Below are positions 26-60,152 of a DNA stretch of 64,000 bases, piece by piece. How positions within the stretch are numbered: position 1 is the stretch's first letter; every line of letters starts with the position of its first letter. Under the pieces are notes generated by a model, which did no database searches, had not been told where the DNA came from, and was given only the letters and a program-made list of their open reading frames with translations. Made by a program: the position numbers and the translations under genes. Source of the stretch: a virus; IMG/VR virus record IMGVR_UViG_3300036770_005052, positions 80,423 to 144,422 of that record; one strand, written 5' to 3'.

Positions 26-3000
26 ATGGAAAGGGATATTGAAGTATTTGGTAATGAAGTTTATTTCAATGAAAGAGTAACTTTTTATAAAAATAATTTT
101 CAATCTTCAAAATATCAACTTTCTGAAATATGGGAATCTGAAAATGAAATTCTTCCTGAAGGATCTTTAGGTGTAGAATCTGACACAAACTTTTTTAAGT
201 TTGGAGATGGGGCTACTAGATGGAATGATTTGCCATATGCCTCAACAAACAGTATTCAAGGAACTCAAGGACTTCAGGGAGTAGGATATCAAGGATCACA
301 AGGTCTTCAAGGAAATCAAGGTATTTCTGGAGCTTTTGCCGGAAAAGGAGACCAAGGTACTCAAGGTCTACAAGGATCTCAAGGTCTACAAGGATCTCAA
401 GGTCTACAAGGATCTCAAGGATCTCAAGGATTACAAGGATTACAAGGAAACCAAGGAAACCAAGGAAATCAGGGATTACAAGGAAACCAAGGATTCCAGG
501 GTGGTCAAGGTTTACAAGGTTTTGCAAATCAAGGATCACAAGGTAATCAAGGTCTTCAAGGGAATCAAGGAATTCAAGGAGTTCAAGGATTCTTAAGTAA
601 CTTCCAAGGAACGCAAGGTATTCAAGGTTCTCAAGGATTTCAGGGGTTACAAGGTAATCAAGGAACACAAGGTAATCAAGGAATTCAAGGTAGGCAAGGA
701 ACTCAGGGTAATCAAGGTCTTCAAGGGAATCAAGGAATTCAAGGACTTCAAGGACCTTTAAGTAACTTTCAAGGAACCCAAGGTAATCAAGGGACACAAG
801 GACTACAAGGACTACAAGGACGCCAAGGTCTACAAGGGTCAATTGGTTCTCAAGGAACTCAAGGATTCCAGGGAATACAGGGTAATCAAGGTCTTCAAGG
901 ACTTGATGGTGCTTTTGCCGGTCAAGGTGTCCAAGGTCTTCAAGGAATACAAGGTCGTCAAGGTGCTCAAGGATTAGCAAATCAAGGAGTGCAAGGAAGA
1001 ATCGGTTCTCAAGGATTCCAAGGAATTCAGGGTCGTCAAGGTGCTCAGGGTCGTCAAGGAACACAGGGACCTTTAAGTAACTTCCAAGGAACTCAAGGAG
1101 CTCAAAGTTCTCAAGGAACCCAAGGACTTCAGGGTAATCAAGGAACTCAAGGATTCCAGGGAATACAGGGCAATCAAGCTTCACAGGGACGCCAGGGATC
1201 TCAGGGTTTAAGTACTCAAGGTTCTCAAGGTATTCAGGGTCGCCAAAGTGCTCAAGGTTTACAAGGATTACAAGGACGCCAAGGATCTCAAGGATCTCAA
1301 GGATTACAGGGTGATCAAGGTACTCAAGGTAATCAAGGACTGCAAGGTAATCAAGGACTTCAGGGTAATCAAGGTAATCAAGGATTGCAAGGCAATCAAG
1401 GACTTCAGGGTAATCAAGGAAACCAAGGACTCCAGGGTAATCAAGGTGTTCAAGGTAATCAAGGTCTTCAAGGTAGCCAAGGTACTCAAGGTAATCAAGG
1501 ACTCCAAGGTAATCAAGGACTCCAAGGACTGCAAGGCAATCAAGGACTTCAGGGTAATCAAGGAAACCAAGGGCTCCAGGGTAATCAAGGTTTACAAGGT
1601 AACCAAGGTTTACAAGGACTCCAAGGTTTACAAGGACTTCAAGGTCGCCAAGGTGGTCAAGGAGTTCAAGGAAATCAGGGACTGCAAGGAAATCAGGGAT
1701 TGCAAGGAAATCAGGGACTTCAAGCTAATCAGGGTCTTCAAGGTCTTCAGGGACTTCAAGCTAATCAGGGTCTTCAAGGTCTTCAGGGTCTTCAAGGTCT
1801 TCAGGGTCTTCAAGGTCTTCAGGGTCTTCAAGGTTCTCTAAGTAATTTCCAAGGAACTCAAGGACTTCAAGGTAATCAAGGTCTTCAAGGACCTCAAGGA
1901 CTTTCTGGAGAATTTGCTGGACAAGGAACGCAAGGAACGCAAGGACTCCAAGGTTCTCAAGGTTTACAAGGTCTTCAAGGTTTACAAGGTCTTCAAGGAC
2001 CTTTAAGTAATTTCCAAGGAACTCAAGGACTTCAAGGACCTTTAAGTAATTTCCAAGGAACTCAAGGTAATCAAGGTCTTCAGGGGCTTCAGGGGCTTCA
2101 AGGGCTTCAGGGGCTTCAAGGACTTCAGGGTAATCAAGGATTGCAAGGAACTCAAGGTAATCAAGGTCTTCAGGGTCTTCAGGGTCTTCAAGGATCCTTA
2201 AGTAACTTCCAAGGAACACAAGGTAACCAAGGTGCTCAAGCAACTCAGGGTGCTCAAGGAACTCAAGCAAATCAAGGAATGCAAGGTCTTCAAGGACCTT
2301 TAAGTAACTTCCAAGGAACTCAGGGAAATCAAGGTGTTCAAGGTAATCAAGGTCTTCAAGGTAACCAAGGTACTCAAGGTAATCAAGGCTTACAAGGTCT
2401 TCAAGGATCACAAGGTCTTCAGGGAATGCAAGGTAGTCAAGGACTTCAAGGACCTTTAAGTAACTTTCAAGGAACCCAAGGTAATCAAGGGACACAAGGA
2501 CTACAAGGACTACAAGGACGCCAAGGATCTCAAGGATCTCAAGGATTGCAAGGTAATCAAGGAAATCAAGGGCTTCAAGGGCGCCAAGGTTCTCAGGGAA
2601 CACAAGGACTTCAAGGTTCTCAGGGAACACAAGGACTTCAAGGTTCTCAGGGAACACAAGGTTTACAAGGTATTGGAATTCAAGGTCCACAGGGAACTCA
2701 AGGAACTCAAGGACTTCAAGGTCTTCAAGGTATACAAGGATTACAGGGATTGCAAGGAATTCCAGGCTCAGGAATTATTTTTATTCAAGATGAAAACGAT
2801 CTAGATAAAACTTTTTATCCTTCATTTTTAGAACAAACAAGTGGAACAACAAGCACAGAATATGTTTCTTCTGAAAAATTAGTTTTCAATCCTTCTTCTG
2901 GAAGTATTGGTATAGGCACAAGTATTATTACAAATACACTTACTGTTGCAGGAACAGCTACTGCAACCTCATATTTTGGAGAGGGAGTTAATCTTGTCGG

Positions 3001-6000
3001 TATTGTAACCCAGTTAGTTCCTGGAATTGGTATTGACATTACTAGCACACAAAATCCAGGAAAGGGTGTAGTCAAGGTAGATGCATACAGACCTGTTGGT
3101 AAAACAATATACGTATCTCAAAATGGTGATGATAATAATACTGGATTAGCAGAAAATTATCCAAAGAGAACTATAAAAGCTGCAGCTTCTGTTGCCTTAT
3201 TTGGTGATACAATTAAAGTTTTCCCCGGATCATATGTAGAAGATAACCCAATTGTATTATCAAAAACAGTATCAGTTGAAGGCACTGAACTTAGAAACTG
3301 TGTAGTTACTCCAAGAAATTTAAATCAAGATTTATTCCATGTTAATAATGGTTGCCATATTACTGATGCGAGTTTTATTGGCGCTCCCATGACAAATGGA
3401 GCTGCTGCTGTTGCTCTTCAACCATTGTCAGGAGTTGCGACTGATAGATTTTTTGATGCGGCAAGAATGATTCGTTTTAATTTGGATTATATTGCTCAAG
3501 AATCTGTTGGATTCTTGACAAGTGGATTTAGTGGATTTGCAGGTAGTCATAGGGAGCAAGATGCAGCTAAACTTATTGATTCTAACTTAAATTATATTTC
3601 AAGCGAAGCAGTCGGATTCTTAACATCTCCTTCTGGATATAACTTTACTTTAAACAATAGTGATTATACCAACTGTAGAGAGGATATTGTCAGCATTATG
3701 CAGGCAGTTTCTTATGATTTGAAAGCAAATAGTAATCGCAAATCAATCGGAGCAGGTTATTCTTACTTTAATAACTCGGGTGGATTAATTCATATTACTG
3801 GAGTTGGTGTTTCTGAGGCAACTATTGCCACACTCGATTATGCAGCTGGAATTGCAACTTATATTATCAATAATCAAACACCTCCAATTTCTTATCAGGG
3901 AGTGGGTAATAGTATACCACAAGTTAAAAATCTTTCAGTAATTCAAGTAGAAGGTGGGTGTGTAGGTGTAGGTACGACTATTGGACAATTAGTTGGAATT
4001 GTAACTAATATGATTGGTGCAGGAACGACATTAAATGCACCTTCAGTGAGATATGGAGTTACATTAGAAAGTCAAGATTGTGCTGACGATATTAAGAGTA
4101 TATGGAAGTGTATAATTTTTGATATTACTAGAGGAGGAAATTCAAAATCTGTTTCGGCTGGAAGTGCATATTATGATGAGGAATGGAATTTGAAATCTGG
4201 AATCTTAAAAAATCCAGATGAAGTTAAACAAACTATAGCTACTATAGATTATTCTTTTAACGTCGCAAGAGCAATAATTAACAATTGCTCTTGGGGAGGA
4301 TATCCCGTAGGTCTAGGGACAATAGTTGTAAATGCATCATATAATGAAAATACAGGCATTACTACAATAACTGCAATAAATCATGGATTATCAAATAATG
4401 ACCCAGTTAAAATTGTTGGTTTAGGGTTTACTTGTCCATCAGGTCCAGGTACAATAATATATCCTAGCGGAACTTATGGTTATGTCTTCCCTGTAAAAAA
4501 TGTTTTAAATTCTGATACTTTTGAAGTAGTTGTTGGACAATCTACATTACCACACACGTATGTTTCTGGTGGAACTGCTCAAAAGTATACTAGTTTCCAA
4601 ACAAAATTTACGCAAGTTAAAGATCTTGCAATGCAAGTTGATTCTGAAACTGGATTTAATAATGTAATTACTTCTTGTTCGGATGTTGCATCTGCACTTA
4701 AAACATGTATAGGTATAGTAACTTCTATTGTTGGATTTGGTTCAACTGCATTTTCATATGTTGGATTTAATACAACATATCCTGGAAATAGAGGTAAGGG
4801 ATTTGATACTATTGTTGGTGTTACAAGCGCATTGTATGAAGAAACATCTGGAAAGACTACAATTAAAGCTCCTGGACTACCAGTCAAGGTTGGCGATTTA
4901 ATTGAAGTTAGAAATCTCACATTCTCTTGTTCATCTGGGGGACCAACATTAACACAAAAATTCCCATCAGGTTATTATGGATATGAATTTTATATTACTA
5001 AAATTAATCAAGATGAGTCATTTGAAATTTACACTGGAGTAAGTACTATTCCTCATACATATGTTTCTGGTGGTTATGTCATAAATCGTACAATAGGCGT
5101 CACAACTGCTCAATATGATAATATCACAGGAATTACTACAATTACTGCACCTGGTTTAATTGTTAAGACAGGGGATATAATTACGTTAAGAGATTTAGAA
5201 TTCTCATGTTCAAGTGGTGCGGGAACAACTACTTTGTATCCTACAGGAAATAGAGGATATGCTTTTGAAGTTTTATCTACAGTCAATGAAAAAGATACTT
5301 TTACTGTAAATGTAGGATCATCAACTATTCCGCACAATTATGTTTCTGGAGGAGTTGTTATTCCACCTTACTCTAAGGGTGTTGGTCCAATCACACAAGG
5401 TCCATATGTAAGAAATTGCACCAACTTTATAGCAGATAGTATTGGAATGAAAGTTGATGGTTTCTCTGCTGAGCCAGGAGATCAAGATGATATCGGTGTT
5501 ACTGGAACAATGAGTGTTGACTCATACACCCAATATAATCAAGGTGGTATTGGAGTTTCTATCACAAATGGTGCATATACCCAATTAGTTTCTATCTTTA
5601 CAATCTGCGATGACATTGGAATCTTTACAAAGTCTGGTGGACAGTGTGATATTACAAACTCAAATTGTTCTTTTGGTAATTATGGTCTAGTATCAGATGG
5701 TGTTGGCGATTACACTACTAAGTCAATATATAGATTTACTGGAGAAGTTGTTGAGGACACTGAAGAAGAAACAGCAACGGTTGTTATTTCAGGAGTCGGT
5801 ACTTATAGACCTTATGATGGTCAAGCAATATATTTTGGAGAACTATACTATCAGGTAAATACAATTAATGTTACCAATGGTGGAAATGGTTACAATCCAG
5901 ATAATCCACCAGTGGTTACAATTAGTTCTCCTGAAGGACCTAATGGAATTACTGCAGAAGCATCCGCAAATGTTAATGAATTTGGTCGCATATCATCAAT

Positions 6001-28703: not shown

Positions 28704-29137
28704 AAACCTACAATCTCACCATCACTGAAAAGCAGGCACGAGCACTTGTAGATGCTACTGATTTGCTTCAAAGAGTTCAATTGGGTCAGTGGAGGGAAAT
28801 TCAAGATAATCTTCCTCTTCAAAAACCAATTGATTATACAGAATTTCACCAGGATATGAAAATTATTGGAGCAATTCTATCCAAACATATGATTGATGGT
28901 ATTGATGGTGGTGCTTCCTCACTTGGAGTAGGACATCAAGACCTTCCAGAAAGTAATGGTATTCTTTATGACCTTCATCGGGTCATTCGCAGGAAACTTT
29001 CTGTGGAACGAGCAGTAGAGCAGGGTATTATTGAGAATGAAAATGTTTCCAGAAATGAAATGCCTATCACAGTGGATTTTGATTTACCTATGAAGTGGGG
29101 AACCGAACCACTTGCTAAACTGGAAAGGGTCAGTTGA
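28700..29137 (+). CDS. Conserved hypothetical helical protein
   Basis: 145 residues, one of the larger proteins of the array. It begins MKTYNLTITEKQARALVDATDLLQR, a pattern seen in phage early proteins whose N-terminus is a beta-strand followed by a helix that counts on TEKQA. The middle has GGASSLGVGHQDLPES and the tail is LAKLERVS. It ends at the first regulatory cassette. No enzyme function recognised. Confidence 0.7.
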   Translation: MKTYNLTITEKQARALVDATDLLQRVQLGQWREIQDNLPLQKPIDYTEFHQDMKIIGAILSKHMIDGIDGGASSLGVGHQDLPESNGILYDLHRVIRRKLSVERAVEQGIIENENVSRNEMPITVDFDLPMKWGTEPLAKLERVS

Positions 29138-56521: not shown

Positions 56522-57034
56522 ATGAATGATCCAAAGTGTAAAAGATTTTATAGAAAATGTGATGACTTTAGTTTGTGTGTAAACATAGGAGAAAAAGGAT
56601 ACGTTTTAGCAGAGCATCCTAATGAAAGATTCACAATTTTTTATTACGGATTATATGGATCTGGAATTTTTAGTAGAGTTTTTGATAAAGAAGACCCTAT
56701 TATATTGGATGCAAATAAAAATTTAGTCGTTGATGTTCAAAATTATATTCATGATAAAGTTTTATTTGAAGCAACTGAAGATTTTTATATTGTTGGATTC
56801 AATACTTTAGATAAAAAAATAAAGTGGGAAGCTCAAATATTAGACTCTAAAACAACTGAAATTAGAGGAGATTACGATAAATCGTATGCTTTGTGCATGA
56901 ATGGAAGTCCGTACATAAATGGGAAAAAATTCAAGAGATATGATTACTCCACATTACTTAAAAACAAAATCTACAATGTAACTATAAAAAATGATGATAT
57001 AATTATTATTTTTAATCAAGTTGGAGAATGGTAA
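56522..57034 (+). CDS. Hypothetical protein, beta-rich (cupin-like layout)
   Basis: 170 residues with AT-rich codon use like the fibre genes. ERFTIFYYGLYGSGIFSRVF, KVLFEATEDFYIVGFNTLDK. Alternating strands suggest a jelly-roll-type fold. It directly precedes and is coupled to the hydroxylase-like gene, which suggests they act together. Confidence 0.6.
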   Translation: MNDPKCKRFYRKCDDFSLCVNIGEKGYVLAEHPNERFTIFYYGLYGSGIFSRVFDKEDPIILDANKNLVVDVQNYIHDKVLFEATEDFYIVGFNTLDKKIKWEAQILDSKTTEIRGDYDKSYALCMNGSPYINGKKFKRYDYSTLLKNKIYNVTIKNDDIIIIFNQVGEW

Positions 57035-57516
57035 TGATAACCCAAAATGATTTGCAAACTTTATATGAGTGGGCAAAGATAACTAATTTTCCAACCAAAA
57101 AAGCGCCAACTTCAAATGGATATGCAAATAAAGACATTTATATATCTTGGCTAAAGGGAGTAGGTAAATCAATCACTATTCGTAAAAAACTAATGAGTGA
57201 CAAAATATATCAAATATTTGAAAATGATAATATTTTGTATGCAACCTACTCCTTGTTTGAATCTGGGACTATATTAAAACCCCATCGTGATCCTAATGTT
57301 TATCGTGAACCCTACAAAAGAATTCAAATCCCATTAAAAATTCCAGATAGAGAAAAATGTTACATGACCTGGCAAGGGAAAAAAATTTATTGGGATGAAG
57401 GCATTCCTCAAGTTTTTCCCGTTATGGACTATATTCATGATGGAGGAAATCTATCAGATTCTTCAATGGAATTTTTAATGCTTGATGTTAAAAAAAATAC
57501 TGTGATTAAATTATAA
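57034..57516 (+). CDS. Asp/Asn beta-hydroxylase-like 2OG oxygenase
   Basis: 160 residues. The ATG at 57034 is chosen because GGAG lies 7 bp upstream; an ATG at 57028 is in frame. SGTILKPHRDPN supplies His84-x-Asp86, followed by RIQIPLKIP and DYIHDGG with His135 as the likely third metal ligand. This is the AspH/aspartyl-asparaginyl hydroxylase-like core. It is a third, distinct 2OG oxygenase in this window. Substrate unknown; Asn in the G-N-Q collagen-like stalks is an idea only. Confidence 0.75.
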   Translation: MITQNDLQTLYEWAKITNFPTKKAPTSNGYANKDIYISWLKGVGKSITIRKKLMSDKIYQIFENDNILYATYSLFESGTILKPHRDPNVYREPYKRIQIPLKIPDREKCYMTWQGKKIYWDEGIPQVFPVMDYIHDGGNLSDSSMEFLMLDVKKNTVIKL

Positions 57517-57828: not shown

Positions 57829-57859
57829 TTGACAAATTCAGTGGGCACAATGCTATAAT
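57829..57859 (+). promoter_or_regulatory. Sigma70-type promoter for CP12/restriction-modification block
   Basis: TTGACA (57829-57834), 19-bp spacer, TATAAT (57854-57859). Consensus boxes with long spacing. It leads to cp12 at 57915 and then the endonuclease and methyltransferase with no further terminator visible. Confidence 0.65.
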
Positions 57860-57914: not shown

Positions 57915-58082
57915 ATGGAAAAACACATCCATAATAGTGCTTTTGATGCTCCATTAGAAGCACCAGATCCTCAAGATCCTAAAATTTCAAACAGAGCTAA
58001 TCGTCATCATCCTGGTACTCCTTTTGAAGAATATTGTTCAACACATCCAGATGCTGACGAATGTAAAGTTTATGATGATTGA
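57915..58082 (+). CDS. cp12: Minimal CP12-like Calvin-cycle inhibitor
   Basis: 55 residues. The C-terminus GTPFEEYCSTHPDADECKVYDD-type signature (Cys41 and Cys50, spacing as in the C-terminal redox pair of CP12, then ECKVYDD) is the GAPDH-binding part of CP12. The N-terminal Cys pair and the long helix of host CP12 are missing, so this is a shortened form with an Asp/Pro-rich start. Known role: CP12 bridges GAPDH and PRK to switch off the Calvin cycle. Cyanophages carry it to redirect carbon to the pentose phosphate pathway. The following gene starts 27 bp later. Confidence 0.8.
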   Translation: MEKHIHNSAFDAPLEAPDPQDPKISNRANRHHPGTPFEEYCSTHPDADECKVYDD

Positions 58083-58109
58083 TCCCTTAATTTTTTAATT
58101 TACTTTTTT

Positions 58110-58679
58110 ATGAAAAATTTTGTTATTGAGTCGAATGTTTACGGTGAGCCTAGTGTTTTTACCGTAACTAAGTATGATGAAAATGATATTCAAGACTTTA
58201 AAGAATATTTTGATTGCTGGCAAAATCTTAAAACTTCATCTTTAAAAATCGATGGAGGACCTGCAAATTTCCATGCAGCTTTTACTGAAGGTTTATTTTG
58301 TCTTTGGTCTGGTTGTGTAAGGTACAAAGATTCGAAATCAAAAAAACTTAAAAGTTCTTCTTTTGATGCGTATGATATTGTTACTGAAAAAACAAAGCAA
58401 GTTAAATCTACAATGATGGATATTGATTTGACTTCCTTTGGTCCCAAAACAAAATGGGATGACTTATATTTCCTGGATTTTTACAATGATGGTTCTGTAG
58501 ATGGTTCTTTCGACGTATATTACATTGAAAATGAAATTATTTACAATTCGCTTGTCAACAAATCCGAAACCTTAAAAGAGCAACAAGAAGCAAAGCGTCG
58601 CCCTCGTACTTCCGTTAAGAAAAACGTAATTGAAGTTTTTAATATTCAACCTGTAGAAAAAAAAGTAAAAATTTGGTGA
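58110..58679 (+). CDS. Type II restriction endonuclease, Bsp6I-like family
   Basis: 189 residues. The motif chain EGLFC (60-64), FDAYDIV...KQVKS (85-100, a PD-(D/E)xK-type site with QVK), DLTSFGPKTKWDDLYFLDF (106-124), VDGSFDVYYI (130-139) and QQEAKRRPRTSV (158-169) follows the Bsp6I family closely. Family specificity is GCNGC (from memory of the named family; not testable here). It cuts unmodified double-stranded DNA in the cytoplasm. Stop and the methyltransferase start are 1 bp apart, so the pair is co-translated. All expected catalytic residues appear present. Confidence 0.85.
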   Translation: MKNFVIESNVYGEPSVFTVTKYDENDIQDFKEYFDCWQNLKTSSLKIDGGPANFHAAFTEGLFCLWSGCVRYKDSKSKKLKSSSFDAYDIVTEKTKQVKSTMMDIDLTSFGPKTKWDDLYFLDFYNDGSVDGSFDVYYIENEIIYNSLVNKSETLKEQQEAKRRPRTSVKKNVIEVFNIQPVEKKVKIW

Positions 58680-58680
58680 G

Positions 58681-59622
58681 ATGATGAAGACTCTAGATTT
58701 ATTTGCCGGAATTGGTGGAATTCGCCTTGGATTTGAAAATGCTGGATTTAAAACAGTTTTTTCAAATGATTTTGAACCACTTTGCAAAACAACTTTCGAT
58801 TTAAATTTCGGAGAGCCACATCTTCATGTTGAAGATATTCGACAAATACCTCCTAGCAGTCTTCCAAACTTTAACATTCTTTTAGGTGGATTTCCTTGCC
58901 AGGCATTTTCAATAGCTGGATATCGACAGGGATTTGCAGACGAAAAGGATAGAGGTAATCTGTTCTTTTCAATAGCAAATATCTTACAAGAAAAAAATCC
59001 AGATGCATTTTTGCTTGAAAATGTAAAAAATTTAAAAGGACATGATAATGGAAATACTTTTAAAGTGATTCAAGATACATTATCATCTTTGGGGTATTGT
59101 GTAAATTTTAAAGTTATGAATACCATGGAATATGGTAATATTCCTCAAAATCGCGAAAGAATTTACATTGTCGGATTCAAAGATAGAGAGCATCATTGCA
59201 ATTTTAAATTTCCAGATCCGATTGATTTAACTGTGAAGGTTACAGATCTTCTTGATCAAAATATACCATCAAAGTATTACTATAATGGTAAACCTCTTTA
59301 TGATCGAATTAAAGATGATGTAATCGATCAAACAAAAGTATATCAATGGCGTAGGCAATATGTGAGAGAAAATAAAAAAGATGTTTGCCCTACTCTTACT
59401 GCCAATATGGGTACTGGTGGTCATAACGTTCCAATTATTAAGGATTCCAATGGTATTCGTAAATTGACTCCAAGAGAATGTTTAAGACTTCAAGGATTTC
59501 CAGATTCTTATATTCTTCCTGATATTTCTGATGCTACCCTGTACAAGCAAGTTGGAAATTCTGTGAGTGTACCTGTGATTCAAGCTATTGCAACACAAAT
59601 TTCCAAGGCAATGTGCCAATGA
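58681..59622 (+). CDS. DNA (cytosine-5) methyltransferase, partner of the endonuclease
   Basis: 313 residues, the usual size for type II C5 enzymes. Motif I DLFAGIGGIRLGFE (6-19), motif IV GGFPCQAFSIAG with catalytic Cys73, motif VI ENV (113-115), motif VIII QNRERIYIVGF (156-166), a target-recognition region of about 75 residues containing CPTLTANMGTGGHNVP, motif IX RKLTPRECLRLQGFP and motif X QVGNSVSVPV (290-299). All motifs are intact, so it should be active. It protects phage DNA from the neighbouring endonuclease and could also shield against host enzymes. Confidence 0.9.
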   Translation: MMKTLDLFAGIGGIRLGFENAGFKTVFSNDFEPLCKTTFDLNFGEPHLHVEDIRQIPPSSLPNFNILLGGFPCQAFSIAGYRQGFADEKDRGNLFFSIANILQEKNPDAFLLENVKNLKGHDNGNTFKVIQDTLSSLGYCVNFKVMNTMEYGNIPQNRERIYIVGFKDREHHCNFKFPDPIDLTVKVTDLLDQNIPSKYYYNGKPLYDRIKDDVIDQTKVYQWRRQYVRENKKDVCPTLTANMGTGGHNVPIIKDSNGIRKLTPRECLRLQGFPDSYILPDISDATLYKQVGNSVSVPVIQAIATQISKAMCQ

Positions 59623-59643
59623 AAAAACTGTCACATTAGAGAT

Positions 59644-59671
59644 TTTGTCTGACCTTGGTTGACCTTATAAT
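59644..59671 (+). promoter_or_regulatory. Putative promoter
   Basis: TATAAT (59666-59671) 25 bp before the next ATG, with a weak -35 (TTTGTC, 59644-59649) at 16 bp. The TTGACC directly before the -10 is too close to serve as -35. Confidence 0.45.
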
Positions 59672-59696: not shown

Positions 59697-60152
59697 ATGA
59701 CTACCACCTTCGCTGATTACGCCGCCACTGCAGAGGCACGAAAGAACATCGCAGAGGCAGTTCTGGGGCATACCTATGCCCTCTGTGAGGCACTGCGCCA
59801 GAACTACATTGATTACAGCATCAAGTCTCATCAACATGCCATTAAGAATAATGGTATCGTCGATGAGAGTTATGTTCCTTATCATCAGGAACAGATTGAG
59901 AAACTCAAGCAAGGTATTTGTGATTATGAGTTCTATCCTGAAACAGGACGGAAGTATCACAAAATCATTATGAATGCGAATGGTTCTCGCTCTGTTCATG
60001 CTTTTGTGGATCGTAAGACTGGTGAAGTTTACAAATCTGCTTCTTGGAAAGCACCTGCCAAGGGTGTTCGCTATGATCTTCGTCTGATTAAAGATCGTGA
60101 ATGGTTGCTTGAGAATGCTGACTGGTCGGGTGGTTACTTGTACGCAAAATGA
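59697..60152 (+). CDS. Conserved cyanophage protein
   Basis: 151 residues from the ATG at 59697 (the open frame extends 42 bp upstream into the promoter). YALCEALRQNYIDYSIKSHQ is helical. The C-terminal half is a beta-rich domain (KIIMNANGSRSVHAFVDRKT, GEVYKSASWKAP) resembling a short barrel conserved in cyanophages. More GC-rich than the preceding restriction-modification genes. Confidence 0.7.
   Translation: MTTTFADYAATAEARKNIAEAVLGHTYALCEALRQNYIDYSIKSHQHAIKNNGIVDESYVPYHQEQIEKLKQGICDYEFYPETGRKYHKIIMNANGSRSVHAFVDRKTGEVYKSASWKAPAKGVRYDLRLIKDREWLLENADWSGGYLYAK

Follow-up and report, generated by a model that had tools for sequence, protein, structure and literature searches.

A candidate type II restriction-modification cassette with a variant Bsp6I-family endonuclease at a cyanophage accessory site

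A cyanophage contig carries two adjacent genes for a Bsp6I-family endonuclease and a C5-cytosine methyltransferase, and sequence comparison supported their interpretation as a complete, linked restriction-modification (R-M) pair of the Bsp6I type. By gene content the pair classifies as type II, and by location as a phage-borne variant. We propose, with modest confidence, that it would function as a working R-M cassette that has been plugged into the accessory site separating cp12 from a gene for a DUF7717 protein. Its ability to cut DNA, its GCNGC target, and the timing and purpose of its action are inferred.

Gene pair and predicted specificity

The window analyzed here (64,000 nucleotides) forms the final 64 kb of an IMG/VR contig 144,422 bp long. 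The contig carries psbA (contig positions 29092–29964) and cp12 and was therefore assigned to a cyanophage; for its last 19 kb, the only GenBank phage DNA matches were the Synechococcus phages S-SRM01 and DSL-LC03. The original prediction of adjacent, intact genes was confirmed: on the plus strand, a 189-aa endonuclease (58110–58679) is followed, after a single base, by a 313-aa methylase (58681–59622; second in-frame ATG at 58684). Its placement of the first protein in the Bsp6I family also held (RE_Bsp6I PF09504, E 1.5e-16, 61.1 bits, cut-off 25), and the methylase matched DNA_methylase PF00145 with 298 bits. PADLOC designated the two proteins REase_II (9.8e-24) and MTase_II (7e-123), respectively. 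This was the only C5 methylase on the contig, where no PF01555 or PF02086 methylases were found.

All C5 motifs (FAGxGG, PCQ, ENV, QNRER, and GNSV) were present in the aligned methylase, which matched M.HhaI at 1e-62 and showed 53–56% identity to its counterparts in five Bsp6I-type pairs, four of them on plasmids and one in a Blautia phage. Residues 215–266, which we take to include the recognition region, were 65–77% identical to Bsp6I-type methylases. Since a Bsp6I-type methylase of Mycoplasma agalactiae is reported to modify GCNGC (PMC9465063), this similarity makes GCNGC the best prediction for the specificity of the window pair. The expectation that such sites occur in the phage's own DNA was borne out by a count of 108 in the 144-kb contig. 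Observed/expected ratios of 0.90 (maximal-order Markov model) and 1.19 (first-order) indicate that the contig does not avoid the site, and within the R-M pair it occurs only once, at 58275 in the endonuclease gene. Separately, GGCC was strongly depleted on the contig (0.25 of expected) and CCGG and CATG occurred at about half of expectation, a possible trace of host restriction.

Active-site variant and phage relatives

The original prediction that every catalytic motif was present stood for the methylase and only in part for the endonuclease, which was 26–32% identical to the five Bsp6I-type enzymes. Glu60, an acid of the N-terminal helix (codon 58287–58289, plus strand), was invariant in a 27-row alignment and present in 74 of the 76 rows of a larger one, the remaining two being gapped. 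In the catalytic stretch D86 ... Q97-V-K99 (58365–58406, plus strand), D86 and K99 were invariant across the alignments, matching the catalytic Asp and Lys of PD-(D/E)XK nucleases, whereas Gln97 replaces the Glu of the D ... E-x-K arrangement of canonical Bsp6I members. An alignment-based scan of 84,980 prokaryote species (one genome per species) yielded 68 loci, with Q-x-K in the 17 closest cellular relatives (L014–L030) and E-x-K in the remainder. These 17 derive from Patescibacteria or archaeal metagenome-assembled genomes (MAGs), one being labelled only 'bacterium', and two of them (L014 and L030) likewise exceeded the PF09504 cut-off. Because Gln97 is common to all 17 and to all four phage copies described below, we regard it as a subfamily trait, and decay was dropped as a reading of the lost Glu. 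Judged by these alignments, the endonuclease is a member of a Q-x-K subfamily of the Bsp6I family rather than a canonical Bsp6I enzyme. TnsA likewise carries Gln at the corresponding position and is active.

The AF2 model of the endonuclease was confident (pLDDT 93.9). Its best PDB structural match, PvuII, was weak (E 0.19, TM 0.39–0.46), and PDB sequence searches returned no relative. The best viral structure match was a 705-aa protein of the giant virus Yasminevirus (BFVD A0A5K0U835, E 2.9e-15, TM 0.86, 31% identity); named a cytosine-specific methyltransferase, it shares the fold of the window endonuclease over one stretch and appears to be an R-M fusion enzyme.

A single sequence of either protein, scanned against viral contigs, gave no match, and alignment queries were required to recover the same tandem pair in three further IMG/VR phages (L082, L083, and L165). 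Linked endonuclease and methylase genes, the gene content of a type II R-M system, thus occur in four phages including the window. The 172-kb L165 record contains psbA and cp12, and the L082 record contains cp12. Neither gene was seen in the 49.6-kb L083 record, although this contig matches L082 over the R-M region and parts of the flanking sequence. In both L082 and L083, TATAAT directly precedes the endonuclease (motif match only). The four phage copies formed one clade in both the endonuclease and the methylase trees, placed inside or beside the Patescibacteria/archaeal group. Between L082 and L083, dN/dS was 0.132 (0.054–0.223) for the endonuclease and 0.134 (0.084–0.213) for the methylase, so purifying selection acts on the endonuclease of these two phages as strongly as on the methylase. 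Comparisons of the window copy with the other phages were saturated and left unused, and the selection test covers L082/L083 only. Phage endonuclease branches were long (0.67, 1.07, and 0.68, against a median end branch of 0.18) and the window methylase branch was ordinary (0.18, median 0.15), and by these lengths the phage endonucleases evolve fast.

This rapid change bears on two alternatives. In the first, which we consider unlikely, only the methylase would matter, shielding phage DNA from host GCNGC restriction, and the window endonuclease would be a weakened or decaying passenger. Five near-invariant positions are changed in the window copy (R50G, P55H, S59T, A100S, and S102M), more such departures than in any other full-length member; the protein has diverged further than its methylase would predict (about 44%, where 57% would be expected); and a clear ribosome-binding site was not found before its gene, whereas GGTGAG precedes the methylase start. 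Recent loss of function is possible because the window copy lacks a close relative. However, the frame is intact, with D86, K99 and E60 kept, the sister-phage endonucleases are under purifying selection, and the pair has been kept together in four phages. Neutral frames would have closed by now, as an open frame was kept in 0 of 500 neutral runs simulated to the divergence estimated for the window copy. The second alternative assigns the Q-x-K subfamily a changed job, such as an altered or looser specificity, nicking, or modification-dependent cleavage. It would suit the clade-wide loss of Glu and the fast change in phages, but we judge it improbable given that D86 and K99 are kept and that its gene nearly always neighbours that of a methylase whose recognition region is conserved, Patescibacteria included. 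The earlier description of the endonuclease as apparently active must accordingly be narrowed: the active site is the Q-x-K variant instead of the canonical one, and we infer activity only from selection in the sister phages.

The cp12–DUF7717 interval

The cassette is flanked by cp12 on its left (57915–58082, plus strand, Pfam PF02672) and by the DUF7717 gene on its right (59697–60152, plus strand, Pfam PF24835), an order conserved in related IMG/VR contigs. Farther left, upstream of cp12, the window encodes a PF05118 aspartyl/asparaginyl beta-hydroxylase-like protein (57028–57516). In two relatives (L155 and L084) the site is empty: the cp12 and DUF7717 matches lie 85–87 bp apart, and the flanks match both ends of the window cassette. 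The interval in L121 is likewise empty. Comparison of the border sequences with L084 and L155 delimited the insert to 58083–59622 (plus strand). On the left, the 3' end of cp12 (AAAGTTTATGATGATTGA) is common to the empty-site relatives; on the right, AAAAACTGTCACA (59623–59635) matches AAAAACTGGCACA of L084, and the TATAAT before DUF7717 (59666–59671) is kept in L084 as well.

These borders change the view of the genomic context. The pair had been described as part of a promoter-led block with CP12. A TTGACA-N19-TATAAT motif pair does exist upstream of cp12 (57829–57859, plus strand), but it is a motif match only, and its 19-nt spacer lies outside the usual 16–18 nt, so a promoter scan restricted to that range did not report it. 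The shared block itself did not hold up, as the neighbourhood reflects insertion at an accessory hotspot and not a conserved cp12 operon. The same comparison bears on whether the cassette is an assembly chimera or a contaminating bacterial fragment. Its nearest cellular relatives are Patescibacteria, and AT content is higher in both R-M genes than in the gene on their right. Nevertheless, both flanks are standard for this phage group and in order in many contigs, the phage-clade version occurs on three other phage contigs, and the phage copies form their own clade. We consider an artefact highly improbable and rejected a chimera in view of the conserved flanks and sister phages.

A linked system in a phage had also been called rare. 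At the cp12–DUF7717 site of related cyanophages, modification cassettes are instead recurrent: by hand classification, 15 of 35 non-redundant intervals contained a DNA-modification gene, and 6 of the 35 a methylase with an adjacent candidate nuclease. Modification families at the site include PF01555, PF02086, PF05869, Eco57I, and Mom; among the hotspot intervals (L084–L163), L123 encodes the Mom-like protein. The candidate nuclease of L119 matched PADLOC REase_II at 1.1e-11 and that of L136 weakly at 4e-5, and those of L097, L132, and L144 had no significant family match. In the family shared by L097, L136, and L261, D75 and E91-x-K93 were invariant; the AF2 model of the L097 partner ORF was of low confidence (pLDDT 59). 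The Bsp6I-like pair of L082 sits elsewhere, about 5.3 kb downstream of DUF7717. In the cultured Prochlorococcus phage P-SSM7 (L253, GU071103, 37440–39713), a homologue of the L119 nuclease directly precedes two dam genes, making this 'hypothetical protein' and the dam genes a candidate R-M cassette. Homologues of the same type in S-SSM4, S-SSM2, ACG-2014f, and S-CAM1 have no adjacent annotated methylase. Some partner ORFs at the hotspot have homologues in cultured marine phages that mostly lack one, and we therefore treat these ORFs only as candidate restriction enzymes. The literature searched, with partial coverage, contained no report of R-M cassettes at the cp12–DUF7717 site.

Proposed role and comparison with known systems

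Under the explanation we favour, both genes would be expressed during infection. The C5 methylase, probably GCNGC-specific, would mark phage DNA, and the Q-x-K endonuclease would cut GCNGC sites that lack the mark inside the infected cell. The most probable benefit would be to shut out unmodified rival phages, along with other DNA entering the cell; the Bsp6I system restricts phage lambda (PMC11324026). Cutting of unmodified host DNA may be a second effect, one that is less supported because a tested viral R-M system spared host DNA (PMC7253447).

A rival explanation makes breakdown of unmodified host DNA early in infection the main task of the endonuclease, supplying nucleotides and stopping host expression. 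Chlorovirus restriction enzymes offer a precedent, and arithmetic alone places a GCNGC site every about 90–120 bp in a host of 60–65% GC, compared with about 1 kb in the 35% GC phage. The tested giant-virus (Marseilleviridae) system, however, left host DNA undegraded (PMC7253447), and the diversity of cassettes in the cp12–DUF7717 interval points to conflict with other DNA instead of a single unchanging role in the host. We therefore think this explanation doubtful, and a trifle more so than that of a passenger endonuclease.

The usual view casts phages as restriction targets that answer with lone methylases. We tentatively suggest, as an idea that could well prove wrong, that cyanophages reserve the cp12–DUF7717 interval as a dedicated plug-in site for the exchange of complete R-M and DNA-modification cassettes from many families. 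Restriction warfare between lytic phages in shared hosts would follow, one cassette being the Q-x-K PD-(D/E)XK variant common to Patescibacteria and archaea. If true, restriction would be an offensive trait in phage–phage or phage–host conflict among abundant photosynthetic hosts. This offensive reading predicts methylation of virion DNA and exclusion of rival phages, and it points to an uncharacterised Q-x-K endonuclease subfamily.

Among the closest described arrangements are the Bsp6I-family plasmid R-M systems of Firmicutes (for example Lactococcus pAF22, Streptococcus thermophilus pSt0, Bacillus altitudinis pTM1, and C. difficile pJMR5-4), in which the C5 methylase gene likewise comes after the endonuclease gene in the same orientation, and which share the RE_Bsp6I domain and the conserved methylase recognition region with the window pair. 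They differ in being plasmid-borne, in their E-x-K motif, and in the 88–106 bp between the genes. The Patescibacteria and archaeal relatives (L014–L030) carry a Q-x-K endonuclease 38–45% identical to that of the window and a methylase domain that is mostly 60–71% identical, but their genes are convergent, unlike the tandem window pair. Most of their methylases bear an N-terminal fusion to a LexA-like repressor, a domain that the window methylase lacks. In L014 (3552–5141, minus strand) the C5 methylase carries at its N-terminus a fused LexA DNA-binding domain and S24 peptidase, and the long methylases of most of L015–L028 have the LexA/S24 fusion too (Pfam checked in L014 and L023). Such a LexA-methylase with a Q-x-K endonuclease may constitute a Patescibacteria R-M system that contains its own SOS-type repressor; no paper on these fusions was found in the partially covered literature searched.

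Among viruses, the Blautia phage NatCom_2932 (L002) resembles the window in carrying an adjacent Bsp6I-like endonuclease and C5 methylase in a phage genome, but its endonuclease belongs to an E-x-K branch near gut Firmicutes enzymes, outside the cyanophage clade. That E-x-K endonuclease beside its methylase (2154–3776) is annotated as hypothetical. None of the literature searched, whose coverage was partial, described the cyanophage lineage, the active-site variant, or the exchange site. The kind of system is already known, since Marseilleviridae and chloroviruses carry R-M systems (PMC7253447) and their use has also been attributed to jumbo phages (PMC7824862). The Marseilleviridae and chlorovirus systems share with the window a lytic virus, a complete pair, self-protection of the genome, and a proposed role in virus–virus conflict, but they are GATC N6-adenine systems of eukaryotic viruses (PMC7253447).
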